DNA of 64,000 nucleotides, taken from Blastococcus sp. CT_GayMR20. GTDB lineage: Bacteria > Actinomycetota > Actinomycetes > Mycobacteriales > Geodermatophilaceae. A program made the translations under genes and the position numbers. The stretch spans positions 53,156-117,155 of the forward strand of contig NZ_SPQM01000002.1 of NCBI RefSeq assembly GCF_004570345.1, in the 5' to 3' direction. Shown one piece after another: positions 21,021 to 61,545 of this stretch; the first letter of the stretch is position 1, and every line of letters starts with the position of its first letter. Under the pieces are notes generated by a model, which was not told where the DNA came from, searched no databases, and worked only from the letters and a program-made list of their open reading frames with translations.

Positions 21021-21063
21021 GTGGGGCGGGTGGGGCTCGAACCCACGACCCAGGGATTATGAG
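21021..21063. repeat. attL: left copy of the 43-bp tRNA-Met attachment core
   Basis: It is identical over 43 bases to 61503-61545 and corresponds to the anticodon loop through the 3' end of the tRNA. It stops being tRNA-like after GATTATGAG, where the intact gene continues TCCCATGC. It is the displaced chromosomal 3' end of the tRNA gene. Confidence 0.9.
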
Positions 21064-21171
21064 ATATCTCAGGGCGTGTCGCTGACCTGCCCGTATATCG
21101 ACAAAATGGCTGCTGACCTGGGATTTCAACGCTAACCGTCGTTGACTCCCGACGGTGCGATACGGACGTTC

Positions 21172-21201
21172 TGTGGGCGTCGTGTGGGCGCGGTGTGGGC
21201 G
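21172..21201 (+). repeat. Three 11-bp-phased TGTGGGCG repeats, candidate integrase arm sites
   Basis: TGTGGGCG occurs at 21172, 21183 and 21194, exactly one helical turn (11 bp) apart, about 109 bases inside the left core. Two more copies with the same phasing flank the right core at 61425 and 61436. In the circular form they would flank the core as arm-type integrase sites. Confidence 0.65.
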
Positions 21202-21333
21202 CGGTGGGTGTGTGGGGCTCGATGCCGGGAGGGTGATGGGAGGCTTGTCCACACCCCGGTGCTCGTGCGCATTACCGGAGCTCTTGCAGTCGAAGAGCTG
21301 GCGTCATACCTGCCAGTTGGCTACTCTCAGCGT

Positions 21334-21687
21334 ATGGCGACGATGGGGCTCACGACGCGACGCGATACCGAAAGGTGGGCTGGCAATCTGCTGCGCAGCG
21401 CCCGCGCCAAGAAGAGCGTCTCGCAGGCCCAACTGGCGGAGTTGGCCGGAGTTCCCCGCTCCACCGTGGAACGGATCGAGGCCGGCACCCGGCAGCCCTC
21501 GCTGATCACGCTCAGCAAGCTGCTCGCGGCGATCGACCTGGAGATGCGCATTCGGCTGGAGGACTACGACAACCACGACGACATCCTGGACACCACCTAC
21601 GCCGCGATGCCCCCCGATCAGCAAGCGGCCACCGACGCACGTCACGAGGCGCTGGTCGATGCCTTTTCCGCCGCCGGAAAGCAGTGA
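21334..21687 (+). CDS. XRE-family helix-turn-helix regulator / antitoxin-like
   Basis: A 117-residue protein starting at ATG 21334. A clear XRE/Cro helix-turn-helix occupies residues 20-65 (LLRSARAKKSVSQAQLAELA, VPRSTVERIEAGTRQPSL), followed by LEMRIRLEDYD, as seen in HipB-like and AbiEi-independent antitoxins. A possible -10 element (TACTCT) lies only 12-17 bases upstream, so the mRNA may be nearly leaderless. The stop overlaps the GTG start of the nucleotidyltransferase gene (GTGA), so the two act as a unit. Confidence 0.8.
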   Translation: MATMGLTTRRDTERWAGNLLRSARAKKSVSQAQLAELAGVPRSTVERIEAGTRQPSLITLSKLLAAIDLEMRIRLEDYDNHDDILDTTYAAMPPDQQAATDARHEALVDAFSAAGKQ

Positions 21688-22316
21688 CCGGCCCCGAGGC
21701 AGCCAGCGTAGAGCCGTTCGACGCCGCGCCCATCCTGAGCAGTCTCGAGCGCCACGGCGTGGAGTACGTCGTGGTAGGTGGCTTCGCTGCGGTCGTCCAT
21801 GGGGCCACCCGGCCCACCCGCGACATCGACATCACCCCCGCTACCACTCCGGAGAACCTGGACCGGCTGGCCGCAGCACTGCGCGAGCTTGATGCGCGCA
21901 TTCGCACCGACGCCGAGCCGGACGGGCTGCCGTTCAGCACCTCGGGCGAGTCCCTGGCTGGTCAGCGGGTGCTGAATCTGCAGACCCGCCACGGCGAGCT
22001 CGACCTGACCATTCGCCCGGCCGCATTCAGGGGCGGCTACGACGACCTGACGCCTGGCGCTAGCCGCCGCATTATCGGTGGTGTCGAGGTGCTCGTTGCA
22101 GCGCTCCAGGACGTCATCCGCTCCAAGGAGACCGCGGCACGCCGGAAGGACCAAGAGGCATTGCCCGAGCTGTACCGGCTGGCCGGAGCAACACACCGGC
22201 CTCGGGCCGCCCAGCCACCGTCGGAGACCACGCCGGCGAACCCGCCGCTCAGCGGTGCCGAGCGCATCACCGCAGCACGGCAGCGTGCCGCCCAACGCCG
22301 GCCCGACCAGACCTGA
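21684..22316 (+). CDS. Nucleotidyltransferase (AbiEii-like or DUF6036-type), putative toxin
   Basis: A 210-residue protein with GTG start at 21684. The N-terminal half has the minimal nucleotidyltransferase signature: EYVVVGGFAAVVHGATRPTRDIDI, with Gly-Gly near residue 31 and the Asp-x-Asp pair near residue 47, then LNLQTRHGELDL as the third carboxylate. The C-terminal part (LQDVIRSKETAARRKDQEALPEL) is typical of AbiEii-like and related proteins coded next to a regulator. It overlaps the XRE gene by four bases. A toxin-antitoxin or phage-defence role is inferred from family and layout only. Confidence 0.75.
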   Translation: MTGPEAASVEPFDAAPILSSLERHGVEYVVVGGFAAVVHGATRPTRDIDITPATTPENLDRLAAALRELDARIRTDAEPDGLPFSTSGESLAGQRVLNLQTRHGELDLTIRPAAFRGGYDDLTPGASRRIIGGVEVLVAALQDVIRSKETAARRKDQEALPELYRLAGATHRPRAAQPPSETTPANPPLSGAERITAARQRAAQRRPDQT

Positions 22317-22655
22317 CCCGAGCGATGAAGGTCCGTGGCCGCTGAGCCCTTATCAGCAGGCCCTCCAGTTTTCCTCCAGTTTGCCGGCGGGGACGCGTTC
22401 CAGGGCAGGGCGGACCGCGACCTTCTCTCGTCGCCGGCCGATGCTTCTGCGGCGTGGCAGCCCACTGGCGGTCCTCGACCGTTGCCAACGGTGTTGCACC
22501 GCGGTCCTCGGGGCGGGCACAGGAGCACCCTTTGGGCCACGCTGCGCGTGGCGCCGGCTGCGCCGTCGTCAAAGTCCGCCTGCGGCGGGCCTGTGCCTGT
22601 CGTCCCCGACCCGTCCGGCAGCTCAGCGTAGGGACCTCCCGCGCCGTTTCCTCCC

Positions 22656-22717
22656 GACCGGACCAAGATCCTTCCGCCCTTCGGGCGCTCCGCTGCGAAA
22701 GCAGTCTTGGTCCGGTC
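22656..22717. repeat. 13-bp perfect inverted repeat with 36-base internal region
   Basis: GACCGGACCAAGA at 22656-22668 is exactly complementary to 22705-22717. The internal part contains a second small hairpin (CGCCCTTCGGGCG). It lies in a stretch without an intact gene; it could be a terminator, a structured RNA or a nick/replication site. Confidence 0.5.
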
Positions 22718-22814
22718 GTCCCCCGCCGTCGCTCCCGGCCCCTGAGCAGAGCTCTGTGCCGGACGGGCCGGGGGAATGGGTGGCAGGACACCCGTTCCGT
22801 AGCTCCTCCCGTAC

Positions 22815-23105
22815 CAGCTTCGGCTCCCGTTCCGTGAGTAGCTCGGCGTAGTTGCCCGGGCGGCCGCAGTCCTCCGGTGGGCAGGCGCCATGGCCGCTGA
22901 CGCAGCCGACGGCCTTGCCGACCGGTCCGAGCACCTCGACATCGTGTCCAACCGTCGCCGAAGTCGTGCACCGCGGCGACAGGACGCGGACAGTCGGATC
23001 CTTCGCTCGTCGGTCTCGCCTTGCTCGTCCCAGTCGTCGACCGACAACGAGTCGACCACCGAGTCCATGCAAAACGGGTGCACGTGCGGAGTCGGTCCAG
23101 TCGAG
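22815..23105 (-). pseudogene. Decayed pRiA4b ORF-3-like plasmid protein
   Basis: Three minus-strand frames carry consecutive pieces of one protein: HPFCMDSVVDSLSVDDWDEQ (from about 23095), VAAVHDFGDGWT (about 22985) and HDVEVLGPVGKAV ... GHGACPPEDCGRPGNYAELL (about 22955-22850). In order they reproduce the core of the plasmid pRiA4b ORF-3-like family, including the diagnostic ACPPEDxGGPxGY motif. At least two frameshifts separate them. Such genes are common on actinobacterial plasmids and integrative elements. Confidence 0.65.
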
Positions 23106-23533: not shown

Positions 23534-23782
23534 GTGACCGCTGACAACGCCCCCACCGCGGCGTCCGAGCTGCTGACTCTGGAGGAGACGGCGGCCCTGC
23601 TGCGCACCCCGGCGGCCACGCTGCGCTACTGGCGGCACCTCGGGACCGGGCCGGACGGCTTCCGCCTCGGCCGGCGCGTCCTGTATCGGCGCGAGGACGT
23701 GGACCGCTGGGTGGCCGAACGGCAGCAGGCGGAGCTGCGGCACCGACCGAGCGGGGCGCCAGGACACAAGCCGGCGTTGTGA
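23534..23782 (+). CDS. Excisionase-like MerR/HTH_17 DNA-binding protein
   Basis: An 82-residue protein with GTG start at 23534. The whole protein is a compact winged helix: LLTLEETAALLRTPAATLRYW, then GPDGFRLGRRVLYRREDVDRWV, the standard excisionase/HTH_17 pattern of actinobacterial integrative elements. It likely binds near an att site to direct excision or acts as a small regulator. It lies 37 kb from the integrase in the integrated form; in the circular form the gap closes to about 2.6 kb. Confidence 0.8.
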   Translation: MTADNAPTAASELLTLEETAALLRTPAATLRYWRHLGTGPDGFRLGRRVLYRREDVDRWVAERQQAELRHRPSGAPGHKPAL

Positions 23783-23957: not shown

Positions 23958-24434
23958 GTGATCTACCAGCCACGGGGTGGAGATCTCGATCCGGTCGACC
24001 TCGAGAACGCGCTGCTGCGCGCCGCATTCGGCGACTACGCCGACGAGGCCGCGATCCTGCTTCTGATCAACTTCGGCCACTGGCTGCCGCAGCTGCAAGC
24101 CGCCGGGCTGATCACTGTCGTGGAGGAGGCCGAGGGGATGTGGGCGCGGATCGACTGGCCCGAACTGGATGCGGAGCTGTGCGCCGGACGCCTGCTGGGA
24201 AGCAGCGGTGAACTGCGGGTGCTGCACGCGGCCGCGAGCGTCGCCGACGGTCGCCCCGTCGACCTCGGCGACCTCGCCGGGGGCCTTGACCGCCGGGCGC
24301 TCGTCCTCGTGCTCGCCGCGATCGCACATGCCGCCGGAAGCCACGAACACCGCCGCGTCAGCTTCGATGACGACGGCGTTCCTTACCCCGGCGAGCAAGT
24401 GCCGCCGCTGGTGGCGTGGCCTACACGCGAGTGA
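23958..24434 (+). CDS. Hypothetical protein of the element
   Basis: A 158-residue protein. GTG at 23958 behind GGGGTAGGA is the best start. The sequence is acidic and mixed alpha/beta (LDPVDLENALLRAAFGDYADEA, GLITVVEEAEGMWARIDWPELD, RRVSFDDDGVPYPGEQVPPLV), soluble, with no motif I can name. Proteins of this kind occur next to excisionase genes on actinobacterial elements. Its end overlaps the 3' end of a possible minus-strand gene. Confidence 0.5.
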   Translation: MIYQPRGGDLDPVDLENALLRAAFGDYADEAAILLLINFGHWLPQLQAAGLITVVEEAEGMWARIDWPELDAELCAGRLLGSSGELRVLHAAASVADGRPVDLGDLAGGLDRRALVLVLAAIAHAAGSHEHRRVSFDDDGVPYPGEQVPPLVAWPTRE

Positions 24435-25244: not shown

Positions 25245-26793
25245 GTGGAGGACGAGTACGACTACATCATCGTGGGAGCCGGCGCCGCGGGGTGCGTGCT
25301 GGCGAACCGCCTGAGCGAGAACCCCGCCACCAAGGTGCTCCTCGTCGAGGCGGGCGGTTCGGTTCTCGACCCGATGGTCAGGATCCCCAAGGGCCTGTAC
25401 TTCCTGCTCGGCGGAGGCAAGTACGCGTACAGCTACCAGACGTTGCCGGCCGGCCCCAACAAGACGGTCGAGCACTGGATCCGCGGCAAGCTGCTCGGCG
25501 GCTCGACGTCCATCAACGGGATGCAGTATCACCGCGGCGACGCCTGGTTCTGGGACGAGCTGGAGCGGCGAGGCAACGACGGCTGGGGCTGGACGCACAT
25601 GTCGCGCGTCTTCCGCGAGATCGAGGACCACGAGCTGGGCGCCACCGCCACCCGGGGCTCCGGGGGCCGGATGCACATCCACGTCAACCGCCGGCACGAC
25701 GGAGCTCACGGCGATGCTTCTCGAGGCCGCCGTCGCCACCGGCCTGAAGCACGTCGAGGACGTCAACGAGCCCGGAGCCGAAGAGCGCGTCGGCTTCGTG
25801 CCGAACATGATCCGCAAGGGCCTGCGGGAGAGCTCCGACACCGCCTTCCTGAAGCCCGTGCGCAACCGCAAGAACCTGACCGTCGCGACGAAGACGCCCG
25901 TCGGCTATGTGCTCTTCGACGGGAAGCGCGCCCGCGGCGTCCGGTTGCGCGACCGGGGAAAGCTGCGTGACGTGCAGGCTCGGCGTGAGGTCATCCTCTC
26001 GGCCGGCGGGATCGCGAGCCCGCTCCTCCTCGAACGTTCCGGTGTCGGCAACCCCGAGGTGCTGGGCCGGGTCGGCGTGCCCGTCCTCGCAGAAAGCCCG
26101 CAGGTCGGGGAGCGCATTCTCGAGCAGCGCATGCTCGGGTACCAGGCGAAGCTGTCGAAGGACCTGGGCTTCAACAGGCGGATAGGCACGTTCTCGCGGC
26201 AGATGTTCGAGGGGGCGAAGTACCTGCTCTCCCGCTCGGGCATCGTCGCGACCGGCGCCTACGAGCTCGTGGCGTTCCACAAGTCGTCGCCCGAGGCGCC
26301 CACGGCCGATCTCATCTCGTTCATCAACCCGCTCTCGTTCGACCTGACGGCGGAGAAGCTGGGGCCGGCGAAGCACCCGGGCTTCCAGATCAACGGGCAG
26401 CTGGCGCACCCCACCACCGCGAGCTCGGTGCACATCACCGACGTCGATGCCGACGCGCCGCCGGTCATCGACGCGCGATACCTCGAGACGGAGTACGACC
26501 GGTCCGCGATGCCGAAGCTGATCGACTGGGCGCGCAAGGCCGCCGCCCAGTCACCCCTCGCCGACGTCATCAGCGAGGAGGAGATACCCGGGCCCGACGT
26601 CACGACGCCAGAGCAGCTCATCGCGAGCTCGTGGATGAATCCGCACGTCTACCACGCGACCGGCTCGGCGGGGATGGGCGTGGCCGACGACGACGTGGTC
26701 GACGCCTCGGTGTTCCCGCTCCAGCCGGGAAACACCGCCGGCCCGACGGTCGCGATGGCCTGGCGCGCGGCGGACAAGATCCTCGAGGGGTGA
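25245..26793 (+). pseudogene. GMC-family oxidoreductase, one-base frameshift
   Basis: GTG at 25245 follows GGAGG. The first frame gives [17 protein letters not shown] (FAD-binding GxGxxG), LLVEAGG and [13 protein letters not shown], up to residue about 152. An extra G at about 25698-25702 (CACGACGGAGCTC) then shifts the frame. The second frame continues [14 protein letters not shown] ... REVILSAGGIASPLLLERSG and ends VDASVFPLQPGNTAGPTVAMAWRAADKIL. The C-terminus also lacks about ten residues usually found between the catalytic HATG region and VDAS. Family members oxidise alcohols with FAD; this copy is probably inactive unless the base call is wrong. Confidence 0.8.
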
Positions 26794-26858
26794 GAACAGC
26801 CTGAGCCGGTCGTCCGGAGTGTCAGGAGGAAGGAGGCGCGTCGATCCGAAGCGGCTCG

Positions 26859-26909
26859 TAGCACATGGGCTCGCTGCTGCAGGTCGACGGTGGATATCTC
26901 GCACGGTGA
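26859..26909 (+). pseudogene. C-terminal scrap of a short-chain dehydrogenase
   Basis: The last codons before TGA at 26907 read GSLLQVDGGYLAR, the almost invariant end of SDR enzymes (G-x-x-x-x-VDGG-x-x-A/x). The preceding sequence in frame has a stop codon and no SDR features, so only the tail remains. Confidence 0.4.
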
Positions 26910-27003
26910 ACGTCGGTCACCGGAATCCACCGAGAAATCGACGTGCGGGCGGCAGTCGGCCCTGGCAGATATGAGCCGCTCGTCCATCTTTACAGGAGGC
27001 GAC

Positions 27004-27891
27004 ATGGCGCAGGCCGCGACCCCAAACAGGCGATTGATGCCGGCGGCGTTCTTCGGGCATGGCAATCCGATGAACGCTCTGGAGGTCAACCGCTACACCG
27101 CGGCGTGGCAGGCGTTCGGGAAGGCTGTGCCCCGGCCGCGCGCTATCCTGGTGGTCAGCGCGCACTGGTACATCAATGCGACCGCGGTGACCGCGATGCC
27201 CCGACCCCGGACCATCCACGACTTCTACGGCTTCCCCCAGGAGTTGTTCGAGGTGCAGTATCCGGCGCCCGGGCTGCCGGAGTTGGCCGACGAGGTCAGC
27301 GACGTCGTGCACCCGACCTGGGTCGGAGCTGACGCCGATAGCTGGGGCATCGACCACGGCACCTGGTCGGTCCTGGTGCACGCCTTCCCCGACGCGTCGA
27401 TCCCGGTCGTGCAACTGTCGATCAACGCGGCCAAGGGCTTCGACCACCACCTCGAGCTCGGCCGGAAGCTGGCCCCGCTGCGGGAGCGCGGGGTGCTGAT
27501 CGTGGCCAGCGGCAACGTCGTGCACAACCTGCGCGGGATGAACTGGAAGCTGGCCGACCACGGCTTCGACTGGGCGCAGCGGTTCGACGAGGACGCCAAG
27601 CAGCGCATGCTCACCGACCCGACCGAGTTCGCCACGCTGGATGCGCACTCGGACTACCGCAACGCCGTCCCCACTCCGGATCACTTCATCCCGGCGCTGT
27701 ACCTGGCCGGCCTGGCCGGTGCTGCCGGAACCGACGGCCACGACGGCACCAACGTGCTCATCGACGGCTACGCCTACGGGTCCTTGTCGATGACCGCGTA
27801 CACGCTCGGCATGGACTGCTCGCCCGCCACCGGCGACGAAGGCGCCCCGCTACCGCCGGCAGCTACCCCGCCGGACGAGTCCAACATCTGA
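27004..27891 (+). CDS. Class III extradiol dioxygenase family (LigB/DODA type)
   Basis: A 295-residue protein; ATG 27004 follows ACAGGAGG by six bases. The metal ligands of the YgiD/DODA family are visible: the first His in FFGHGNPMN (residue 19), a second in VVSAHWYINA, a third in SGNVVHNLRG, and the active-site GIDHGTWSVL. Homologs are zinc- or iron-dependent aromatic-ring dioxygenases. A second family member lies at 53916-54827, but the two are not close copies. The gene converges on the alcohol dehydrogenase gene and probably belongs to aromatic catabolism. Confidence 0.85.
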   Translation: MAQAATPNRRLMPAAFFGHGNPMNALEVNRYTAAWQAFGKAVPRPRAILVVSAHWYINATAVTAMPRPRTIHDFYGFPQELFEVQYPAPGLPELADEVSDVVHPTWVGADADSWGIDHGTWSVLVHAFPDASIPVVQLSINAAKGFDHHLELGRKLAPLRERGVLIVASGNVVHNLRGMNWKLADHGFDWAQRFDEDAKQRMLTDPTEFATLDAHSDYRNAVPTPDHFIPALYLAGLAGAAGTDGHDGTNVLIDGYAYGSLSMTAYTLGMDCSPATGDEGAPLPPAATPPDESNI

Positions 27892-27928
27892 CCGGGCGGT
27901 CACCGCGACGTCGTCTCGGTCGCCCCCG

Positions 27929-29050
27929 TCAGCCGATCCGGATGATGGGCTTGACCACGGCGCCGGACTCGGCGTCGGCGGCCGCCTGGTTGATCTGGTC
28001 GAAGTCGTAGAAACGGACCAGCCGGTCGAACGGGAACCGGCCCTGCATGTACAGGTCGAGCAGTTGCGGGACGAATACGTCGGAAACGCTGTCGCCTTCC
28101 ACGACCCCCATCAGCGCCTTGCAGCTCTGCATGAACGCATTGGCCGGCAGCTGGATCATCGCGTCCGGCTTCGACGCACCCAGGATCGCCGCCTTGCCCC
28201 GCTGGCGCAGCGCCTCCACCGCCTGCCCGATGAGCGCGGGCACGCCGGTGGTGTCCAGGGCGTAGTCGACGCCGCCGCCGGTGATGCGCTTGATCTCGGC
28301 GACGGCGTCCTGCTCACCTCCGTTCACCACATGTGTCGCGCCCAGCTCGATGGCCAGGTCGAGCCGTTCGGGCACCAGGTCGACGGCGATGATCGTGGTG
28401 GCGCCGGCGACCCGGGCGGCCATCACCGCGCTCAGGCCGACCGCGCCGGCGCCCATCACCGCGAAGCTGTCGCCGACGCCCACCCGCAGCGCCCGCAGCA
28501 CCGTGCCGGCGCCGGTCTGGATGCCGCAGCCCAGCGGTCCGAGCAGCTCCAGCGGCGCGTCGTCGCGGACCTTGACGGTGTTGCGCTCGTTCGTGATCGC
28601 GTAGGTGGCGAACGAGGACTGGCCGAAGAACCGGTCGTGCAGCGTGCCGTTCCCGTCGGCCAGCCGGAGTGCGTGCGAGCCGTCGGGGCGCTGCCCGGCG
28701 AAGTTGATGTCGTTGAAGTTGGCGCAGCTGGCCGGCGACCCATCCAGGCACGGTCGGCAGCGACCGCAGGGCAGGAAGCTGACGGCGACGTGGTCGCCCG
28801 GCGCCACCTTCTCCACCGCTGCGCCCACCGCTTCGACCACGCCGGCGCCCTCGTGGCCGAGGACCACCGGCAGCGGCACCGGGTAGACCTGGTCGCGGAC
28901 CACGACGTCGGTGTGGCACAGGCCGGTGGCGACGATCCGCACCAGCACTTCGTCGTCGCGCGGCGGTTCGAGCAGGGCGGGGGCGAGTTCGAACCGTCCC
29001 TTCTCCCGGACGACGGCGGCGGTGATCTCCCGAGTGGTCGTGGCGGTCAT
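27929..29050 (-). CDS. Zinc-dependent aryl-alcohol dehydrogenase (MDR, class III-like)
   Basis: A 373-residue enzyme. It has the catalytic zinc ligands in TGLCHTD (Cys43) and GHEGAGVVEAVG (His66), the structural zinc motif CGRCRPC near residue 95, and the NAD-binding GAGAVGLSAVMAARVAGA near residue 198. The FNDINFAGQRPDGSHAL insertion after the structural site is typical of benzyl-alcohol (XylB-like) dehydrogenases, and oxidation of an aromatic alcohol to the aldehyde is the likely role. It lies ten bases after the metallo-beta-lactamase-fold gene on the same strand, so the two form an operon. Confidence 0.9.
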   Translation of the reverse strand: MTATTTREITAAVVREKGRFELAPALLEPPRDDEVLVRIVATGLCHTDVVVRDQVYPVPLPVVLGHEGAGVVEAVGAAVEKVAPGDHVAVSFLPCGRCRPCLDGSPASCANFNDINFAGQRPDGSHALRLADGNGTLHDRFFGQSSFATYAITNERNTVKVRDDAPLELLGPLGCGIQTGAGTVLRALRVGVGDSFAVMGAGAVGLSAVMAARVAGATTIIAVDLVPERLDLAIELGATHVVNGGEQDAVAEIKRITGGGVDYALDTTGVPALIGQAVEALRQRGKAAILGASKPDAMIQLPANAFMQSCKALMGVVEGDSVSDVFVPQLLDLYMQGRFPFDRLVRFYDFDQINQAAADAESGAVVKPIIRIG

Positions 29051-29060
29051 CGGGTGCCGC

Positions 29061-30038
29061 TCAGCGGTACTCGAACATGGCCCAGGCGACCATCTCGGCG
29101 TTGGGCGGAGTGGCGTAGTCGAAGCCGTACAACTGGCCGTACTTCGGCCGCAGTGCCTCGGTGGCCTCGCGGGACACCGTCCCGAAGAAGTTGGCCAGGA
29201 AGGCGGTGTGTGCGCTTTCCGACGGGTCGGCGAAGTCGGAGAAGGGGTGCGCCGCCATCGCCTGGCCGATGGCCTCCTTCATGTCGGCGAGGAAGGAGAA
29301 CTCGAAGTCGATGTTCTCGCGGGTCCCCACGTTGCCGTGGCTGCCGGACAAATGATCCCAGCCCAGGTCGTAGATCTGCCGGAGGTTGTCCTCGTGCCAG
29401 TGGAAGCGCTCGTTGCCGGCGAACTTCCAGAACGGCGGCTGGTCGGGATTGATCAGGTCCGAGGAGTGGATGATCCGCTCGTCGGCGAGCAGCCAGGCGG
29501 AATGGTCGTCGGTGTGCGCGGCGAACTCGAACCCGTGCACCTCCACCGTGAGCCCCTCGAAGTCGAACTGCCCACGCGGCCAGTCCAGAACCTCGGTCGG
29601 CGGAGGGAACGAGCTGTGGCTCAGGTCCATCACCCGGGCGGTCTTCTCACTGCCGATGATCCGCAGGCTCCGGCCCTGCTGCTCGGCGGCGCCGACGTAC
29701 TGGCCGATGTCGCCGATGTGGTCGGCGTGGTAGTGCGGGTAGACGACCGTGGTGATCGGCTTGTCGGTGACCGAGGCGATGCCCTGGACGATGCTGTCGT
29801 AGACACCCTCCAGGGTGTCCATGACCAACACGCCCTGATCGCCGACGTAGAAGACGGTGCCGTAGTTGAACGACTGCACCCAGTACGACCGCTCCGTCAG
29901 CCGCTGCAGCACGTAGGGCTGGGTCATGTTCCGCCGGTACAGGTCGCCGATCTTCACCCCGGGCTGCAGCACCTCCTCCGCCGACGGCTCGACGTAGGTC
30001 GCGCCTACGGTGGACGGAGGAGATGACTGGTCGGCCAT
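29061..30038 (-). CDS. Metallo-beta-lactamase-fold hydrolase
   Basis: A 325-residue protein with the metal motif HYHADHIGD near residue 101-109, a further ligand in FEFAAHTDDHSAW (about residue 175), Asp in IHSSDLINPD and His in LSGSHGNVG. It lacks a signal peptide and is likely cytoplasmic. It is the first gene of a two-gene operon with the aryl-alcohol dehydrogenase; the pair may handle a lactone, ester or thioester intermediate. The substrate is not deducible. Confidence 0.88.
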   Translation of the reverse strand: MADQSSPPSTVGATYVEPSAEEVLQPGVKIGDLYRRNMTQPYVLQRLTERSYWVQSFNYGTVFYVGDQGVLVMDTLEGVYDSIVQGIASVTDKPITTVVYPHYHADHIGDIGQYVGAAEQQGRSLRIIGSEKTARVMDLSHSSFPPPTEVLDWPRGQFDFEGLTVEVHGFEFAAHTDDHSAWLLADERIIHSSDLINPDQPPFWKFAGNERFHWHEDNLRQIYDLGWDHLSGSHGNVGTRENIDFEFSFLADMKEAIGQAMAAHPFSDFADPSESAHTAFLANFFGTVSREATEALRPKYGQLYGFDYATPPNAEMVAWAMFEYR

Positions 30039-30325
30039 GGCGAACTCCCGTAGGTGGTCTTCGGGAGCCGGAACCTCCGGTCGCCCCGGATCAGTGTCTG
30101 GTCAGTATTCGAGCCAGCACGCAGGTCCGCGAGTCGAGCTCGCGACCGATAGCCCCGGCCACCGCACCCGGAGCCATCAGGGCTGCGTGGGGATCGTTAT
30201 CCGTGCCTTGAGCACCGGCCAAAGTCGGTGGTCAAGGGTCAGCAGGGGTCAGCACCCTCAAGGCACGGGAGCGGCGCCGAAGCCGCGCTGAGCTGCGCAG
30301 ATGGACATACGGGCTGGTCAGAATG

Positions 30326-30441
30326 TGGAGCGGGTGACCGGGATCGAACCGGCATGGCCAGCTTGGAAGGCTGGGGCTACTGAGCGCCATTTCCGCTGGT
30401 CGGAGCGTTCCTTGCTTCATGCCGTGCCTTCTGCGTGCCTC
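30326..30441. repeat. tRNA-Gly(TCC) 3'-half plus arm sites: relic attachment region A
   Basis: The first 45 bases, read on the minus strand, are a tRNA-Gly(TCC) 3' half (loop CTTCCAA, T-arm GGTTCGATCC, end CCCGCTCCA). The following 70 bases keep the blocks TTTCCGCTGGTCG and GCCGTGCCTTC at exactly the same spacing as in region B at 51646-51761. GTGCCT occurs at 30424 and 30435, phased by 11 bp as expected of integrase arm sites. No 5' tRNA half is present, so this is not a functional tRNA. Confidence 0.7.
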
Positions 30442-30928
30442 TCGGCCGAATCGAGGCCACCTTCCCACGCACCACGGTGCATACCTGCGTGGTGCGCCTG
30501 ATCCGAGCTTCGATGCGGTTCGTGGCCTGTCAGGACCGCAGGAAGATGGCCGCGGCGCTCAAGCCGATCGACACCGCGCCCACGGCCGAGGCTGCGGAGA
30601 CCGCGCTGCTGGAGTTCGCCGAGTTCGACATCGGCAAGCGGAACAAGGCCACGGTGGCGACCTGGCAGAGCGCCTGGGAGCGGTTCATCCCGTTCCTGGC
30701 GTTCCCACCCGAGGTCCGCAAGATCATCTACACGTCGAACGTGATCGAGTCGCTGAACTACCAGCTCCGCAAGATCATCAAGAACCGGGGGCACCTTCCC
30801 GCGACAACGCGCTGATCAAACCGCTCTGACTGGCCATCCGCAATATCGAGGACAAGCGCGCCCCGGGAACGGGCCAAGGAGCACCGCGCAACAGCCGCAA
30901 GGTCCCCGACAAGCTCGTCGAGAGCTAA
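30435..30928 (+). pseudogene. IS256-family (mutator) transposase remnant
   Basis: The frame 30435-30815 encodes TTVHTCVVRLIRASMRFVAC, RRKMAAALKPIDTAP and AWERFIPFLAFPPEVRKIIYTSNVIESLNYQLRK, the C-terminal third of IS256-type transposases including the conserved glutamate of the DDE triad (in NVIESLNYQLRK). The N-terminal two thirds are missing. A shift after KNRGHLP and an internal stop precede the tail LAIRNIEDKRA ... VPDKLVES, ending at 30928. No terminal inverted repeats are apparent. It begins inside relic attachment region A. Confidence 0.8.
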
Positions 30929-31080
30929 GCAGCTGGTTCATTGCCGCCGTGCCCTGGCTACTCCGCCGACCCGGTCCAGACTGTCCATGAAGGCCACCCG
31001 ATTCCTGGACGCGTCGCAAACGTCAAAGGGTCAGGCGGTGGCCGCCAAGCTGCGCGGCGGCCTCGCTGACTGCTCACGCG

Positions 31081-32277: not shown

Positions 32278-32317
32278 CGCGGGTCCGTCCCTCCTCCGCT
32301 CACGCCCGCTGAGCAGG

Positions 32318-47557: not shown

Positions 47558-47601
47558 TACGAATTCTGCCGAAGAACAGCCGCTCACAGGAGGGAAAGCA
47601 C

Positions 47602-48681: not shown

Positions 48682-48696
48682 TCCAAGATCGCTCCG

Positions 48697-48724: not shown

Positions 48725-48756
48725 TGGGCGACTGGACCATGGAAGAGGAGACAGGA

Positions 48757-51393: not shown

Positions 51394-51645
51394 CCGGCCA
51401 GCGGCATCCGCCAGGGGCGGCGTCGGCCCAACGCCCTCACGCCGTAACTCAATCGTCTCTGGCCGTCGCCGGATCCGTCATCGACCGCTTGACGGACCAG
51501 CGCACCGACCGTGAACTGGGCCGAGGCGCCGTTCGGATGCATCAGGCCCGGTCGGAGCCTTGCTATTTGTCGTGGGCGTCGACCAAGACCGCGCCGGCCA
51601 GGCGCTGCAGCGCCGCGGTTGGGAAAGTGTCCCGCGACACCGCGG

Positions 51646-51761
51646 TGGAGCGGGTGACGGGAATCGAACCCGCACAGTCAGCTTGGAAGGGTGGGTTCCT
51701 TGAGCAGTGTTTCCGCTGGTCGATGGGGAATCAGGTCGAGGCCGTGCCTTCCGATTGCCTC
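51646..51761. repeat. tRNA-Gly(TCC) 3'-half plus arm sites: relic attachment region B
   Basis: It aligns without gaps to region A at 30326-30441 over about 116 bases. The first 45 bases are on the minus strand a tRNA-Gly(TCC) 3' half (CTTCCAAGCTGA, GGTTCGATTCCCG, CCCGCTCCA); the 5' stem partner is missing. Then follow TTTCCGCTGGTCG and GCCGTGCCTTC, and a GTGCCT/TTGCCT pair phased by 11 bp at 51744 and 51755. Same orientation as region A. The rest of the 418-base gap 51394-51811 shows no gene. Confidence 0.7.
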
Positions 51762-51811
51762 AGCGCCGGCGCTCTGGCGGCGGCGAGAGGGCACTTGGTC
51801 GTAGTGGACGC

Positions 51812-52912
51812 TTACGGGGCTCCGCCTGGGCCTTCGGTCGTCTCGCGGGCAGTTCGTCCGGTCGCGGCGGGCCGAGCGAGGGCCTGCCGGACAGCGGGGA
51901 GGACCTCGGTGGCCAGCAGCTCGATCGACTGCGCCGTGGCGGCGAAGGGCAGGCCACCGAGGCCGATCTGGGCGAGGAAGCGGTCGTGGCCGAGGAGTTC
52001 GTGCTCCCAGAGGATCTTGTCCACGATCTCGGCCGGGCTGCCGGCGAACAGCGCGCCGCGCGGTCCGGCCCACTCCTCGAACGCCTCCCGCGGCAACGCG
52101 TGCCCGCGGGCGCTGGGCATGTTGTCGCTGATGTAGCTGGAGTAGTACGGGTAGAAGGTCTCCCGCGCCCCTTGGGAGGTCGGCTCGGCGTAGAAGTGAC
52201 TGGTCACGCCGATGCGGGTGCTGCCCGGGTCGACGCCGTGCTGGGTGGCTGTGCGCCGGTAGAGCTCGGCGAGCGGTGCGAACCGGGCCGGCGCGCCGAG
52301 GATGGCCAGGTACAGCGGCAGACCGTGGCGGCCGGTCCGGACGACGCTGGCCGGCGTCCCGCCGACGGCGACCCACACGGGCAGCTGCTTCTGGACCGGC
52401 CGCGGGTAGACCCCGGCGTCCTGCAGCGGAGGGCGGTGCCGCCCGGACCAGGTCGCTTTCTCGTGCCGGTTGAGCTGCAGGAGCAGTTCGAGCTTCTCGT
52501 CGAACAGGGAGTCGTAGTCGGCGAGGTCGTGGCCGAACAGCGGGAAGGACTCGGTGTAGGCGCCGCGGCCGGCGGCGATCTCGGCGCGGCCGCCGGAGAG
52601 GAGGTCGAGGGCGGTGAAGTCCTCGAACACCTTCACCGGATCGGCCGTGGACAGCACGGTGACGGTGCTCGTGAGTCGGATGTGTGACGTGGCCTGCGCG
52701 ATCGCGGCGAGCACGACGGGCGGTGAGGCGATGGCGAAGTCGGGGCGGTGGTGCTCCCCGACACCGAACACGTCGAGCCCTGCCTGGTCGGCGAGGACGG
52801 CGAGGTCGATGAACTCGCGCAGCCGCACGGCCGGGTCCAGCGGGCGGCCGGTGGCGGGATCGGCGGTGATCTCGCCGAAGGTGAACAACCCGATCTCGAA
52901 AGGCGACGTCAT
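51812..52912 (-). CDS. Luciferase-like flavin-dependent oxidoreductase
   Basis: A 366-residue LLM protein: FEIGLFTFGEITADPATGRP at the N-terminus, FGVGEHHRPDFAIASPPVVLAAIAQATSHIRLTSTVTVLSTADPVKVFEDFTALDLLSGGRAEIAAGRGAYTES-type core (residues about 49-120), and VAVGGTPASVVRTG. It is not a close copy of the LLM at 47602. It is the last gene of a minus-strand operon with a QorB-like reductase and a dioxygenase-family protein. FMN- or F420-dependence cannot be distinguished here. Confidence 0.88.
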   Translation of the reverse strand: MTSPFEIGLFTFGEITADPATGRPLDPAVRLREFIDLAVLADQAGLDVFGVGEHHRPDFAIASPPVVLAAIAQATSHIRLTSTVTVLSTADPVKVFEDFTALDLLSGGRAEIAAGRGAYTESFPLFGHDLADYDSLFDEKLELLLQLNRHEKATWSGRHRPPLQDAGVYPRPVQKQLPVWVAVGGTPASVVRTGRHGLPLYLAILGAPARFAPLAELYRRTATQHGVDPGSTRIGVTSHFYAEPTSQGARETFYPYYSSYISDNMPSARGHALPREAFEEWAGPRGALFAGSPAEIVDKILWEHELLGHDRFLAQIGLGGLPFAATAQSIELLATEVLPAVRQALARPAATGRTARETTEGPGGAP

Positions 52913-52972
52913 GGGAGCTCCGTGGCGGACGGGCTCCAGGGCTCCGGTATCGGAACCCTGGAGCGGGCGGGA

Positions 52973-53836
52973 TCAGGCGCGCAGGCGGGCGACGGCCGCC
53001 GTGACGGCGTCGGTCAGCGAGGTCGGAGCGCGGCCAATGAGCTTGTCCAAGTCGTTGCCCTCGACGTAGAGCTCGCCGTCGGCCGCACCGCGGTCGCCGT
53101 CGGCGTAGACCGCGGCGACCGGCTCGGGCAGGCCGGCGTCGACCAGGATGCGGGTGTACTGCTCGACCGGCACGTCGGTGTAGGTCACGTCCTGCCCGGT
53201 GGCCGCGGACACCGCCGCCGCGAGCTCGGGCATGGCAAACGGCTCGCCGCCGAGCTCGTACACCGCGCCCTCGTGCCCGTCGGTGGTGAGCACGGCGGCG
53301 GCGGCCTCGGCGTAGTCGGCACGGGTGGCGGCGCTGACCTGGCCGGTGCCGGCGGAGCCGACGATGCCGTGCTGCAGGTAGGTGGGCAGCTGGTCGGTGT
53401 AGTTGTCGGTGTACCAGCCGTTGCGCAGCAGCACGTGCGGCACGCCGGACTCGGCGAGGGCCTGCTCGGTGCCGCGGTGCTCGTCCGCGAGCAGCAGGGT
53501 CGAGGTGTCGGCGCGGGTGAGGCTGGTGTAGGCGATCAGGCCCACGCCGGTGTCCTTCGCGGCGGTGATCGCGTTGCGGTGCTGCGGCAGGCGCTGGCCG
53601 ACCTCGCTGCTGCTGACCAGCAGCACCTGCTTCGCTCCGGCGAATGCGGCGCGGAGCGAGGCCGGGTCGGTGTAGTCGGCGCGCCGGACGGTGACGCCGC
53701 GCTGCTGGAGGTCGGTGAGGGTGTCGATGCGGCGACCGGTGGCGACGATCTGCTCGGCGGGGACGCCGCGGGCCAGCAGGCCCTCCACGGCCAGGCGGCC
53801 GAGGTGGCCGGTGGCGCCGGTGACGATGATGGACAT
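52973..53836 (-). CDS. NmrA-type NAD(P)H oxidoreductase (QorB-like)
   Basis: A 287-residue extended-SDR protein: dinucleotide motif VTGATGHLGRLAVEGLLARG at residues 5-24, VRRADYTDPASLRAAFAGAKQVLLVSSSEVG, RNGWYTDNY, and YELGGEPFAMPELAAAVS. This matches quinone oxidoreductase 2 (QorB)/NmrA-like proteins. It may reduce a quinone or ketone formed by the neighbouring oxygenases, or act as a redox sensor. Upstream and downstream genes on the same strand are 79 and 60 bases away. Confidence 0.88.
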   Translation of the reverse strand: MSIIVTGATGHLGRLAVEGLLARGVPAEQIVATGRRIDTLTDLQQRGVTVRRADYTDPASLRAAFAGAKQVLLVSSSEVGQRLPQHRNAITAAKDTGVGLIAYTSLTRADTSTLLLADEHRGTEQALAESGVPHVLLRNGWYTDNYTDQLPTYLQHGIVGSAGTGQVSAATRADYAEAAAAVLTTDGHEGAVYELGGEPFAMPELAAAVSAATGQDVTYTDVPVEQYTRILVDAGLPEPVAAVYADGDRGAADGELYVEGNDLDKLIGRAPTSLTDAVTAAVARLRA

Positions 53837-53915
53837 GGGGTGTGCTCCTTCGGTGGGGGTGTGGGGCCGCCGTGGGACCTGCTGGGCGGCGGCGTGCTGG
53901 TGGAGTCCGGGCCGC

Positions 53916-54827
53916 TCACGCGGCCTGGAAGGAGCGCCGGGAGAAGCCGACGGAGTAGCCGTCGACGGTCGTCACCACCGGGGCGGTGGGATCGGTGGAG
54001 GCGCCCAGGGTGACGAACAGCGGGGTGAAGTGCTCCACCGTGGGGTGGGCGTAGGGCATGCCCGGCGCGGCGGTGCGGAAGCGGGCCAGCTCGTCGACCG
54101 CGCCGCGGGCCAGGGCGTCGGCCGCCCAGGTGTCGAAGTCGGCCGACCAGCCGGGCACCGTGTTCTCGGTGAACATCTCCCGGGTGAGGAACGGCAGGCC
54201 GTGGGTCATGTGGCCCGAGCCGACGACGAGCACGCCCTGTTCGCGCAGCGGGCGCAGCCGCTCGCCGAGGGAGAGGAGGGCGTCGGGGTCGTCGGTGGGC
54301 AGGCTCAGCTGCAGTACCGGGACGTCGGCACCGGGGTACATGATCTTCAGCGGTACCCAGGCGCCGTGGTCGAGGCCGCGCCGGGTGTGCTCGTGCACGT
54401 GCTCGGTGTCCGGCATCAGGCCGGTCACCTGACGGGCCAGGTCGCCGGCGTCGGGGGTGTCGTAGCGGAACGTGTAGTAGAGCGGGTAGAACCCGCCGAA
54501 GTCGTAGACGAGTTCGTCGGGCCGGGCGGCGCTGACCGACAGCGGCGCGGACTCCCAGTGCGCCGAGACGACCACGATCGCCTTCGGCTTGGGCAGGTCG
54601 CGGGCCCAGGTGTGCAGCGGGGAGAGCCACTGGTCGTCCTCGAAGGGCAGCGGTCCGCCGCCGTGGCTCAGGTAGAGGCTGGGCAGCGGCCCGTCTGCCG
54701 GCGTCCAGAGCCGGTGCGGCTGCTCGGCCTCGAGGGACTCGGCGCGGCGCAGGTGGACGGCGAAGGGGTGCGCGGCCGGGATCCGGGCGTCGGCGACGGC
54801 GGTCGTGGTGGGAACGGGCGCGCTCAT
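53916..54827 (-). CDS. Class III extradiol dioxygenase family (DODA type)
   Basis: A 303-residue protein. Metal ligands: His in LYLSHGGGPLPF (about residue 55), His in VVVSAHWESAPL, then GLDHGAWVPL and VVGSGHMTHGLP, and the YSVGFSRRSFQ end. It is the second dioxygenase-family protein of the element, distinct from the one at 27004. It heads the minus-strand operon with the QorB-like and LLM genes. Confidence 0.87.
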   Translation of the reverse strand: MSAPVPTTTAVADARIPAAHPFAVHLRRAESLEAEQPHRLWTPADGPLPSLYLSHGGGPLPFEDDQWLSPLHTWARDLPKPKAIVVVSAHWESAPLSVSAARPDELVYDFGGFYPLYYTFRYDTPDAGDLARQVTGLMPDTEHVHEHTRRGLDHGAWVPLKIMYPGADVPVLQLSLPTDDPDALLSLGERLRPLREQGVLVVGSGHMTHGLPFLTREMFTENTVPGWSADFDTWAADALARGAVDELARFRTAAPGMPYAHPTVEHFTPLFVTLGASTDPTAPVVTTVDGYSVGFSRRSFQAA

Positions 54828-55013
54828 GCGGGCTCCTCGGTGGCCGTGGCGGGTGGGTCGAGTTGGGGGTCAGGGGAGCGACCGGTGTGGAGCCATCGCA
54901 TGGTGCGGGCTTCCGGGCGGCCCTTGTGTCAGGCGCCGACGGGCTGGGGCGGCGAGGACCTGGCCGGCCCGCGCCGCCCCACCCGCTGTGGTGACCCCGT
55001 GAGGGGGCGGTCG

Positions 55014-55592
55014 TCAGGAGATGACCGCGAACCCGCCGGTCCAGGCGATCTTCTCGCCGGCAGCCAGGGTCAGCTGCAGGAAGCCGAGCGCCTCGAGCTC
55101 CCGGGCGCGACGCAGCGAGCCGGCGTCGATCGCGCGCAGGCCGCCGGCGGTGACGATCCCGGCCAGCAGCGACTTGGCGTCGGCGTCGTCCCCGGCGATC
55201 AGCACGGTCGTGGGCTGCTGCCCTCCGACGCTGCCGGAGGCCAGAGTGGCGGCGAAGGTGGTGTTGAACGCCTTGACCACGCGCGACTGCGGCAGTGCGC
55301 CAGCGATCTCGGCGGCGGCGGAGCCGTCGGCCGGGACGACCAGGGAGTCGAAGGTCGCGAAGTCCAGCGGGTTGGTGATGTCGACGACGACCTTGCCGGC
55401 CAACTGCTCGCCGCGCGTAGCAACGATGTCGGTGACCGCGCCGTAGGGGACGGCGAGGACGACGACGTCGCCGGTGACCGACTTCTCGGTGTCGTTCTCC
55501 CCGATCACCTCGAGCTGGTTGCCGCTCTTGCTGACGATGCCGGCGATGGCCTGTCCCATGTTGCCGGTACCGATGATGCTCACGCGTGCCAT
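55014..55592 (-). CDS. NADPH/F420-type reductase (NAD-binding, F420-dependent NADP oxidoreductase-like)
   Basis: A 192-residue Rossmann protein: start ATG 55592 behind GGAGG; MARVSIIGTGNMGQAIAG, VVVLAVPYGAV, VVDITNPLDF, VVKAFNTTFAATLASG and AIDAGSLRRARELEALGFLQL. This is the small F420:NADP oxidoreductase / YwnB-like reductase family common in actinobacteria. It is divergent from the MarR gene, and the intergenic region holds two perfect TTGT-N4-ACAA palindromes, so it is very likely repressed by MarR. Confidence 0.87.
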   Translation of the reverse strand: MARVSIIGTGNMGQAIAGIVSKSGNQLEVIGENDTEKSVTGDVVVLAVPYGAVTDIVATRGEQLAGKVVVDITNPLDFATFDSLVVPADGSAAAEIAGALPQSRVVKAFNTTFAATLASGSVGGQQPTTVLIAGDDADAKSLLAGIVTAGGLRAIDAGSLRRARELEALGFLQLTLAAGEKIAWTGGFAVIS

Positions 55593-55614
55593 AACGTCCT
55601 CCAGGGATGATTGG

Positions 55615-55661
55615 TTGTTGCTACAACGTTCGTGCTGGGTAGAGCGAACTTGTTGCGACAA
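55615..55661. promoter_or_regulatory. Two TTGT-N4-ACAA palindromes, putative MarR operators
   Basis: TTGTTGCTACAA (55615-55626) and TTGTTGCGACAA (55650-55661) are nearly identical dyads with centres 35 bp apart, in the 86-bp gap between the divergent reductase and marR genes. Confidence 0.7.
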
Positions 55662-55678
55662 CCATTCCGACCAACGAT

Positions 55679-56212
55679 GTGACCGTGGACACCCCGTGGC
55701 TCGACCGGCGCCAGCTGCGCTCCTGGATCCGTCTTCGTGGCGTGCTGGAGCTGCTGCCCGCCGTTCTCGACGCGCAGCTGCGCCGGGACGCCGACCTGAC
55801 CGAATTCGAGTATCACGTCCTGGCGATGCTCTCCGAGGCGCCCGGCCGGACCCTGCGGATGACGGAGCTGGCCCGGCAGACCAACGCCACGCTGCCCCGG
55901 CTCTCCCACGTGGTGAGCCGCCTGGAGGCCCGGGAACTCCTGGCGCGCTGCGCCTGTCCGGAGGACCGGCGGGCGACCAACGCACGCCTCACCGAGGCGG
56001 GATGGGCCAAGCTGCAGGAGGCGGCCCCCGGCCACGTGATCAACGTTCGGCAGCACGTCATCGACGCGCTCACCGACGAGCAGATCGACCAGCTCGCCAC
56101 CATCGGCGACGCGCTGCTCGCCCGGCTCGACCCCACCGGGTCGATGGCCGCGACCTACACCCGTTACGACCATCCCGAAGACGGGGTCGAGGGGCAGGCT
56201 GCCGCCGGCTGA
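55679..56212 (+). CDS. MarR-family transcriptional regulator
   Basis: A 177-residue protein from GTG 55679. The winged helix is clear: LTEFEYHVLAMLSEAPGRTLRMTELARQTNATLPRLSHVVSRLEARELLARCACPEDRRATNARLTEAGWAKL (residues about 38-115), with dimerisation helices at both ends. The C-terminal 20 residues are acidic and extended. It likely represses the divergent reductase gene and itself through the two palindromes between them; a phenolic or quinone inducer would be typical. Confidence 0.9.
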   Translation: MTVDTPWLDRRQLRSWIRLRGVLELLPAVLDAQLRRDADLTEFEYHVLAMLSEAPGRTLRMTELARQTNATLPRLSHVVSRLEARELLARCACPEDRRATNARLTEAGWAKLQEAAPGHVINVRQHVIDALTDEQIDQLATIGDALLARLDPTGSMAATYTRYDHPEDGVEGQAAAG

Positions 56213-60112: not shown

Positions 60113-60304
60113 ACCTCGGCCACCCCCGGGAATCGACCTCGCTGCAAGGGGTGCGAGCGGATGTGCGTGCCCCGCCGGGCAAGCGCGGCAGGAGGCGAGC
60201 CCGGACACGTGCGGGAGATCGGGCGGCGAGGACTCGCATTGCCCGATGTGAGGCCCCTTCCGGCAGCAAGCCCTCCTGTCTGTAGTCGATACCCACAGTC
60301 CCCA

Positions 60305-60339
60305 TTGACGCAGGGATATCTTGTGGGCACTGTCCTCGC
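60305..60339 (+). promoter_or_regulatory. Possible integrase promoter with an embedded arm-like motif
   Basis: TTGACG at 60305-60310 and CACTGT 17 bases later could form a -35/-10 pair just before the integrase ATG (60340). Between them TGTGGGCA (60322-60329) differs from the arm repeat TGTGGGCG by one base, so integrase may affect its own transcription. Confidence 0.4.
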
Positions 60340-61488
60340 ATGGCGGGCTCCATTTCCACGATCGTGATCAGCGACGGTACGAAGCGCTACCGCGCGCGGT
60401 ACCGCGACGCCGGCGGGCGGCAGCACGAGAAGCGCTGCAAGCGCAAGGTCGACGCCCAGCACTGGCTCGACGAGCAGACCGCGGCGCTGGTCACGCAGAC
60501 GTGGACGGCGCCAGAGCGCGGCCGCATCACGGTCGAGGCGTGGGCGGAGCAGTGGCTGGCCGCCCAGACCGGGCTGAAGCCGAGCACTCTCTACCGCTAT
60601 CGCTCGCTGCTGCGCTCGCAGATCCTGCCGCGCTGGAGTCAGCACCGGCTGGCCGACGTCACCCACGGCGACGTCGCCGCGTGGGTGGCCGAGATGGCCG
60701 AGAAGCTTGCGCCGGCCAGTGTGCGTCAGGCACACCGGGTCCTCGCGCTCATCCTGACCCTGGCGGTGCGCGACGGGCGCATCCCGCGCAACCCGGCCAC
60801 CGGCGTCCCGTTGCCGCGGGCGCGGCGTGCCGAGCCCCGGTTCCTCACCCGTGAGCAGGTGGAGCGGCTTGCAGAGGCAGCGGGGGAGCACGGCGACGTC
60901 GTCCGCCTGTTGGCCTACACCGGGCTGCGCTTCGGTGAGATGGCCGCTCTCCGGGTACGCCGCGTCGACTTTCTCCGCAAGCGGCTTGTCGTCGCGGAAA
61001 GCGCCACCGAGGTCGGTGGCACCGTCCAGTACGGCAGCCCGAAGACCCACCAGCAGCGAACTGTGCCGATCCCAGGAACTCTCGTCGAACCGCTGGCGAG
61101 GCGGTGCGAGAGCAAGGGGCCGGACGACCTCGTCCTCACCTCGCCCGAGGGCGCGGTACTGCGCTCCGGCAACTTCCGACGGCGGATCTTCGACCCCGCG
61201 GCCGAGACTGCGGGTCTTCCGGATCTCAGCCCGCACGACCTCCGGCACACCGCCGCCAGCCTTCTCGTGGCGAGCGGGGCCAACGTCAAAGCGGTCCAGC
61301 GCATGCTCGGTCATGCCTCGGCGGCGATGACCCTCGACGTCTACTCCGGGCTCTTCGACGACGAGCTCGGCGCCCTCGCCGAACGCATGGACGCCGCCCA
61401 CGACGCCCACATCACGGAGCGTCGTGTGGGCGTCTTGTGGGCGCGAGGCAAGATCGGCGAATTCGATGCTGCCCCTGCAAGCGTCTGA
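60340..61488 (+). CDS. int: Tyrosine recombinase integrase
   Basis: A 382-residue integrase. An N-terminal arm-binding domain (KRYRARYRDAGGRQHEKRCKRK) precedes a SAM-like core-binding domain (residues about 65-150). The catalytic domain has Arg in AYTGLRFGEMAALR (about residue 195), Lys in YGSPKTHQQRTVP, the HDLRHTAASLL box with His and Arg, LGHASAAMT, and the nucleophile Tyr in TLDVYSGLF (about residue 333). It ends 15 bases before the right attachment core in the tRNA-Met gene, the classic position. Two arm-like repeats overlap its last codons. Confidence 0.95.
   Translation: MAGSISTIVISDGTKRYRARYRDAGGRQHEKRCKRKVDAQHWLDEQTAALVTQTWTAPERGRITVEAWAEQWLAAQTGLKPSTLYRYRSLLRSQILPRWSQHRLADVTHGDVAAWVAEMAEKLAPASVRQAHRVLALILTLAVRDGRIPRNPATGVPLPRARRAEPRFLTREQVERLAEAAGEHGDVVRLLAYTGLRFGEMAALRVRRVDFLRKRLVVAESATEVGGTVQYGSPKTHQQRTVPIPGTLVEPLARRCESKGPDDLVLTSPEGAVLRSGNFRRRIFDPAAETAGLPDLSPHDLRHTAASLLVASGANVKAVQRMLGHASAAMTLDVYSGLFDDELGALAERMDAAHDAHITERRVGVLWARGKIGEFDAAPASV
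61425..61443 (+). repeat. Two 11-bp-phased TGTGGGCG repeats inside the 3' end of int
   Basis: TGTGGGCG at 61425 and 61436, 11 bp apart, 60 bases left of the right core. They match the three copies at 21172-21201 and likely form the second integrase-binding arm. Confidence 0.65.
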
Positions 61489-61502
61489 GCAGCCAATACG
61501 TC

Positions 61503-61545
61503 GGTGGGGCGGGTGGGGCTCGAACCCACGACCCAGGGATTATGA
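61503..61545. repeat. attR: right copy of the 43-bp attachment core
   Basis: Identical to 21021-21063. It forms the 3' half of the intact tRNA-Met gene, so integration restored the tRNA. Confidence 0.9.

Follow-up and report, generated by a model that had tools for sequence, protein, structure and literature searches.

The 64,000-nucleotide stretch of Blastococcus sp. CT_GayMR20 analysed here (contig NZ_SPQM01000002.1, positions 53,156 to 117,155; hereafter the window) contains a region of about 40.5 kb between two copies of a tRNA-Met repeat, and it raises the question of whether this region arrived as one mobile element or as several. A preliminary description took everything from 21 to 61.5 kb as one acquired unit, mobilizable and with catabolic cargo. 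We think, with good confidence, that the region is a composite, in which an integrative mobilizable element (IME) at tRNA-Met (21021-61546) holds a nested, integrase-less catabolic cassette bounded by tRNA-Gly cores (30328-51690). Both pairs of ends, the gene modules, the relic arms of a further element and a second genomic location of the cassette can be read directly in the DNA.

The outer ends are given by an exact 43-bp repeat at 21021-21063 and 61504-61546; by our own arithmetic an exact match of this length arises by chance in 64 kb with a probability of about 1e-14. The repeat spans tRNA-Met from its 3' end through the anticodon loop, which is a usual crossover place for tyrosine integrases. 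ARAGORN finds a single tRNA in the window, tRNA-Met(CAT), Rfam concurs, and the integrase gene stops 14 bp short of it. The nearest comparison genome, G001 (a single contig of 4,875,340 bp), contains a related element whose similarity to the window runs from exactly 21021 (94% at this end) to exactly 61546 (91%), with copies of the 43-bp Met core at both corresponding ends; under looser alignment scoring the right-end alignment extends to 61613. We take the repeat to mark the true ends of the element because the G001 element matches the window from exactly the one position to exactly the other. This agrees with the preliminary description, which had proposed the tRNA-Met 3' end as the attachment site, with 21021 and 61546 as the ends, and had noted an adjoining integrase, a xis-like gene and a MobF relaxase, all of which are present by Pfam or NCBIfam. 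It had the 43-bp length and the left copy right, the right copy had been placed one base off, at 61503-61545, and a second repeat pair, tRNA-Gly-like and starting at 30325 and 51645, had been overlooked.

Genes were called with our own script and Pfam was run on all 33 genes between 21.3 and 61.5 kb (E<=0.001). The region carries its own integrase, with attachment repeats at the integration site, and its own relaxase. Pfam detects neither mating-pore nor coupling proteins among these 33 genes, and nothing of the VirD4, VirB4 or FtsK type. The stretch from 21021 to 61546 reads as an IME, and the earlier claim that it is mobilizable with catabolic cargo holds, with a MobF relaxase and catabolic genes present and no transfer apparatus found. 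An actinobacterial integrative and conjugative element (AICE) was considered and rejected, the Pfam scans giving no FtsK/TraB-type translocase; an integrative and conjugative element (ICE) was rejected in the same scans for lack of type IV secretion system genes. The relaxase scores 113 against the NCBIfam MobF cut-off of 100, and both it and the integrase read as intact in the motifs that we take to be catalytic. The integrase has named relatives in Blastococcus (94%), Modestobacter and Geodermatophilus. On plasmids the relaxase has distant relatives only (320 records, each below 60% identity and none covering 80%).

Related elements occupy tRNA-Met in other genomes. In G001 the element measures 33.3 kb between two Met cores and its middle is unlike the window. 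Smaller elements with both ends matching the window are found in G032 (14.4 kb, with a relaxase that reads in pieces) and G026 (about 10.9 kb). Comparison of the window with these three elements defines a backbone, which consists of the relaxase, the integrase, the xis-like gene and a helix-turn-helix/nucleotidyltransferase gene pair shared with G001; the cargo between is exchangeable. The gene pair (21334-22316) looks like a toxin-antitoxin pair. The right cargo matches G032 from 1550577 onward, in pieces, at 81-89%. G024 has, about 5 kb from tRNA-Met, a relative (L164, 7510-8561; about 80-81%) of the cargo gene at 28950-30086 for the metallo-beta-lactamase-fold protein.

The cassette has a different distribution. 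Window positions 30325-51767 align at 99% to G001 1332856-1354298, a place far from and outside the G001 tRNA-Met element, in a tandem tRNA-Gly array. The repeats at 30325 and 51645 correspond to the 3' half of tRNA-Gly(TCC). Similarity between the window and G001 begins inside the left Gly core and ends inside the right one, the outer flanks being unrelated. Trimmed to the Gly cores (30328-51690), the two copies are 99.14% identical. Identity to G001 thus stands at three levels, 71-72% in the right flank, 91-94% at the IME ends and 99.1% in the cassette, and we infer from this that the three parts have different histories. Among the matches listed for 112 genomes of the family, with two candidates scored per genome, the whole block matches G001 only, the others spanning at most about 1.2 kb. 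The next relative of one cassette protein after that of G001 (98%) is 83% identical, among the best 120 of 7061 matches.

The cassette is flanked by attachment sites and has no transfer genes, and the Pfam scan of all its called genes finds no integrase. Its gene content suggests an oxidative pathway for a sugar or sugar acid with its own flavin supply; L-2-hydroxyglutarate oxidase and RibBA both score above their NCBIfam cut-offs. In the called genes 110 codon changes between the two copies are synonymous and 55 are not.

The sequences that adjoin the Gly cores within the IME are relic arms, here called A and Y, of a tRNA-Gly element. The equivalent of arm A directly adjoins tRNA-Gly in 8 of the 10 relatives' loci fetched for it, and the other two have no intact tRNA. 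The arm Y region matches G001 from 1404130 onward (79% over 146 bp), which is the left end of a Gly element, and shares with that element the C-terminus of its integrase. Arms A and Y face each other as they would at the junction of a circle or of a tandem array, and the cassette separates them. The cassette thus sits in a relic tRNA-Gly attachment site. In the G001 region 1290001-1590000 there are an intact tRNA-Gly at 1467167-1467239 and seven further Gly cores in one orientation, two of which bound the cassette. The cores between 1303077 and 1467239 (L042-L050) form a tandem array of about 164 kb whose units measure 8 to 63 kb. We considered whether recombination over a shared MobF backbone had brought a Gly element into the Met element, and gave this up since the G001 Gly region that was fetched yielded no relaxase of that kind.

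The proposed course of events is as follows. The outer unit would have inserted into the tRNA-Met 3' end by its own integrase, and its MobF relaxase would let it use the conjugation machine of another element. It would already have held a tRNA-Gly attachment site, in which the ends A and Y of a decayed Gly element meet. The cassette would then have entered through a crossover inside the tRNA-Gly core, with the anticodon loop as the likeliest point and a Gly integrase supplied in trans. The IME would carry the cassette between cells, and a Gly integrase would then move it into the tRNA-Gly array of the recipient. The two genomic locations of the cassette are consistent with it being mobilized either alongside a neighbouring element or through an integrase that acts in trans. 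Recombination, excision and transfer, and the order and direction of these events, are deduced from the arrangement of the DNA. The features are collected in Table 1.

Table 1. Features of the proposed composite element and its right flank, in window coordinates.
Feature	Position	Strand	Basis and remarks
Left attachment site (attL), 43-bp copy of tRNA-Met 3' half	21021..21063	+	exact repeat; 94% G001 similarity starts here
HTH_3 protein, antitoxin-like	21334..21687	+	Pfam; NCBIfam HipB-type below cut-off; 95% identical in G001 Met element
Nucleotidyltransferase, weak DUF6036/AbiEii type	21684..22316	+	Pfam; 96% identical in G001
Conserved non-coding hairpin element (330 bp), candidate leading region near the transfer origin (oriT) or single-strand promoter	22511..22838	+	similarity, folding
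xis-like HTH_17 protein	23534..23782	+	Pfam; 63% identical proteins in G001 and G032 Met elements
Protein without Pfam family	23958..24434	+	similar DNA at two further G001 places, 76-77%
Left cargo: GMC oxidoreductase fragment (N-terminal part missing), LigB-type dioxygenase, zinc alcohol dehydrogenase, metallo-beta-lactamase-fold protein	25714..30038		Pfam
Relic arm A of tRNA-Gly element	30197..30324	+	81-92% identical to sequence beside tRNA-Gly(TCC) in relatives
Left tRNA-Gly attachment core	30325..30370	+	repeat pair; G001 comparison
Integrase-less catabolic cassette, 21,363 bp	30328..51690		99.14% identical to G001 copy, 184 mismatches, no gaps
Mutator-family transposase, C-terminal fragment (126 amino acids, aa)	30435..30815	+	Pfam, model positions 241-358 of 379
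Cassette genes: L-2-hydroxyglutarate oxidase, aldehyde dehydrogenase, iron alcohol dehydrogenase, RibBA, HTH_8 activator	31081..38388	-	domain searches
Cassette genes: sugar-type ABC transporter (binding protein, ATPase, permease), GMC oxidoreductase, Gluconate_2-dh3-type partner, HbpS-like	38720..51393	+	
Cassette genes, continued: FAA hydrolase, sugar-acid-type dehydratase, luciferase-like monooxygenase, flavin reductase, two alpha/beta hydrolases	38720..51393	+	
Right tRNA-Gly attachment core	51645..51690	+	repeat pair; G001 comparison
Relic arm Y of tRNA-Gly element, with about the last 20 codons of its integrase	51691..51789	-	G001 match
Right cargo: luciferase-like monooxygenase, NmrA-like, LigB, F420-type oxidoreductase, MarR	51812..56212		Pfam
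MobF (TrwC) relaxase-helicase, 1213 aa	56471..60112	+	Pfam TrwC and helicase domain; 87% identical protein in G001
Tyrosine integrase, 382 aa	60340..61488	+	Pfam; 98% identical protein in G001
Intact tRNA-Met(CAT), attachment site	61503..61578	-	ARAGORN, Rfam
Cyclic di-AMP (c-di-AMP) riboswitch before M23 peptidase gene, right flank	61774..61933	+	Rfam, Pfam

Several points weigh against the composite reading. The xis-like protein misses the NCBIfam excisionase cut-off (20.3 vs 28.8). The window holds no Gly integrase, and the search for one in the G001 array used the Met-type integrase profile, which may miss some. The model accounts neither for the entry of the Gly attachment site into the Met element nor for the route by which the IME cargo at 25.7-30.0 and 51.8-56.2 kb came in; the circular form and the transfer are predictions. 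Mismatches are spread unevenly over the cassette, with 8 in 30328-38327, 169 in 38328-46327 and 7 in 46328-51690. Positions 1-20975 have no significant match beside tRNA-Met in 17 relatives' loci, and no ArdC-like gene follows the window's copy of a hairpin element treated below.

The flanks bear on the first of the alternatives. To the right the sequence is chromosomal, a riboswitch preceding a peptidase gene, and beyond the tRNA it can be aligned, at 69-77% and for more than 500 bp, with 14 of the 17 tRNA-Met loci under comparison, a tally from our own reading of the listed alignment rows, the exceptions being truncated or divergent loci. These loci (14 relatives' loci with G001, G024 and G026) were chosen from search hits, several through an integrase or flank match, and are not a random sample; most cover 15-20 kb of the tRNA-Met 3' side, some less, and the contig fetched for G034 has no complete tRNA-Met. 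The empty site joining 20,975 and 61,546 that the preliminary description named as a check was sought in the same 17 loci and none was found. Positions 1-20975 may not be chromosome and could be part of a longer tandem accretion at tRNA-Met, a possibility that we hold tentatively and would not favour. G001 has several Met cores over about 187 kb, and further cores lie 4.7 kb from tRNA-Met in G023 and, in degenerate form, at 4.6 kb in G029; such accretion would also fit a left flank that is beside tRNA-Met in none of the compared loci. It is opposed by the lack of any further Met core of at least 25 bp in 1-21020, and by several left-flank genes that match one stretch of G028 contig 14, separate from the tRNA-Met match of that genome on contig 5. 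The left flank also encodes large LuxR-type regulators with AAA domains (4982-10245 and 14443-16656).

It is rather unlikely that the IME is a fixed relic which is no longer mobile. The missing ArdC-like gene and the truncated GMC gene in the cargo would suit a relic; the integrase and relaxase are nevertheless intact, and the integrase is 98% identical to that of G001.

A single acquisition event was rejected as a full account, the cassette being elsewhere in G001 at far higher identity than the IME ends. The one unit of the preliminary description does not stand in that form, since its 21.4-kb core is bounded by tRNA-Gly ends of its own and shares 99.1% identity with another locus of G001, against 91-94% for the element ends. 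In a version that we consider unlikely, the 40.5 kb was assembled elsewhere and reached tRNA-Met in one step, the Gly cores being old scars. The outer ends, integrase and relaxase are all intact, and an earlier insertion of the cassette in a donor is compatible with a single last arrival; the G001 cassette is, however, outside its Met element and its identity is much above that of the element ends.

Within the otherwise near-identical cassette the stretch 38328-46327 forms a patch of 2.1% divergence. The 99.14% identity and the uneven mismatches together point to a cassette that was shared very recently, one copy having later been altered in its middle, we infer by homologous recombination; the patch suggests exchange with a third copy. 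That the whole cassette reached both genomes by homologous recombination or transposition, with the Gly cores incidental, is highly improbable: the mosaic of divergence at 38.3-46.3 kb suggests homologous exchange and a transposase lies at the left cassette edge, but that transposase is a 126-aa fragment and on either side the similarity breaks off within the same tRNA-Gly core, beyond which the flanks are unrelated.

The left module of the composite element also contains a conserved hairpin. By our own gene calls positions 22511-22838 are non-coding, and they are about 90-94% identical in 22 fetched copies. The element folds better than 100 shuffles, with a z score of -4.2 as RNA and -4.5 as DNA. 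Two divergent copies in G091 retain 14 of 15 pairs of the inner stem though both arms differ, and each arm pairs best with its own partner. Shuffled arms equalled 14 pairs in 1 and 2 of 20,000 trials; stem registers were picked to maximise pairing, and the shuffles were allowed the same freedom. The copy in G077 (L189) speaks against the stem: of the 15 pairs it retains 12, and its left arm finds a better partner in the right arm of the window (14 pairs) than in its own (12).

A search of 17 near-complete genomes gave 13 long hairpin matches in 7 genomes. Ten of the 13 have a MobF relaxase on the same strand 7-40 kb downstream. Random placement, with the extent of one contig assumed, gave a mean of 0.28 such pairings and a maximum of 4 in 20,000 trials; the limit of 45 kb was set after the distances were seen. 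Against such a pairing, three of the 13 hairpins have no relaxase in reach and 16 of 26 relaxases have no detected hairpin. The hairpin is present in multiple copies in several Geodermatophilaceae genomes (G001, G018, G022, G024, G088 and others). A sample of 396 genomes from across the phylum gave a match at E<=1e-10 in G001 alone, and the hairpin has no Rfam family and no DNA match on plasmids.

An ArdC-like reading frame directly follows the hairpin in all six relatives' copies checked (two in G001 and one each in G018, G022, G052 and G088). The match in G052 is in pieces, and the ArdcN domain was scored on one copy, which also bears an integrase domain. Two long neighbouring integrase-domain frames follow the hairpin in G001 (L015:7678-12337 and L058), the first fused to an ArdC N-terminal domain. 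Genes of the ArdC type are generally situated near transfer origins. Leading regions are described as carrying anti-restriction genes and single-strand promoters in the part of PMC11541004 drawn on here. The hairpin is a candidate for an oriT-proximal leading region or a single-strand promoter. It is like the Frpo promoters in that text (PMC11541004) in being a structured non-coding element of similar size which precedes an anti-restriction-type gene in relatives. It is unlike Frpo in that the window's hairpin lacks the following gene, and the likeness seen is one of structure and position.

A broader proposal, which we regard as doubtful, is that MobF IMEs of the Geodermatophilaceae shuttle integrase-less cassettes. 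These would reside in long tRNA-Gly arrays, dock via tRNA-Gly integrases acting in trans into Gly sites that tRNA-Met IMEs contain, cross species and undock into the next tRNA-Gly array, the hairpin serving as the transfer origin or as a single-strand promoter that activates an ArdC-type anti-restriction gene on entry. What this locus offers is a catabolic cassette that occurs at two kinds of site, inside a tRNA-Met IME and among the units of a tandem tRNA-Gly array, and that is near-identical between genomes whose compared flanking chromosome is 71-72% identical. Docking of integrase-less cargo into a mobilizable element becomes directly testable, and the data suggest that the Geodermatophilaceae harbour a family of MobF elements, present in multiple copies, that share a conserved hairpin module. 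No description of mobile elements of this kind in that family was found in the literature, with that after 2018 covered sparsely.

Tandem accretion and cis-mobilizable elements (CIMEs) are already known (PMC5704250, PMC3146451, in the parts drawn on here, as for the other sources below). As of 2017 no canonical IME with a MobF relaxase was known and only one canonical IME came from Actinobacteria, according to that part of PMC5704250. Searches for actinobacterial ICEs have made use of MobF relaxases (PMC3218068), and predicted plasmids of Mycolicibacterium commonly carry them (PMC8190616). The relevant part of PMC12824646 reports Vibrio ICEs and IMEs and MOBF plasmids, with no MobF IME among them. 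The window element is like canonical IMEs (PMC5704250) in its integrase, tRNA attachment site, own relaxase, tandem accretion and lack of any mating apparatus found, and unlike them in having a MobF relaxase and being actinobacterial. It shares with AICEs (PMC3218068) the tRNA 3' end, the tyrosine integrase and a modular build; AICEs, however, have an FtsK/TraB-type protein and a replication initiator, neither of which was found in the window. The cassette is like a CIME (PMC5704250) in being flanked by attachment cores without an integrase or transfer gene, but it lies inside an element of another tRNA specificity and not beside one of the same specificity. The Dehalococcoides ssrA genomic islands (PMC3146451) are similar in that tandem islands occur at one RNA gene, some of them without an integration module, and carry catabolic genes. 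Those islands use a serine recombinase and a tmRNA, whereas here there are tyrosine integrases, two tRNA systems and the nesting of one unit in another.

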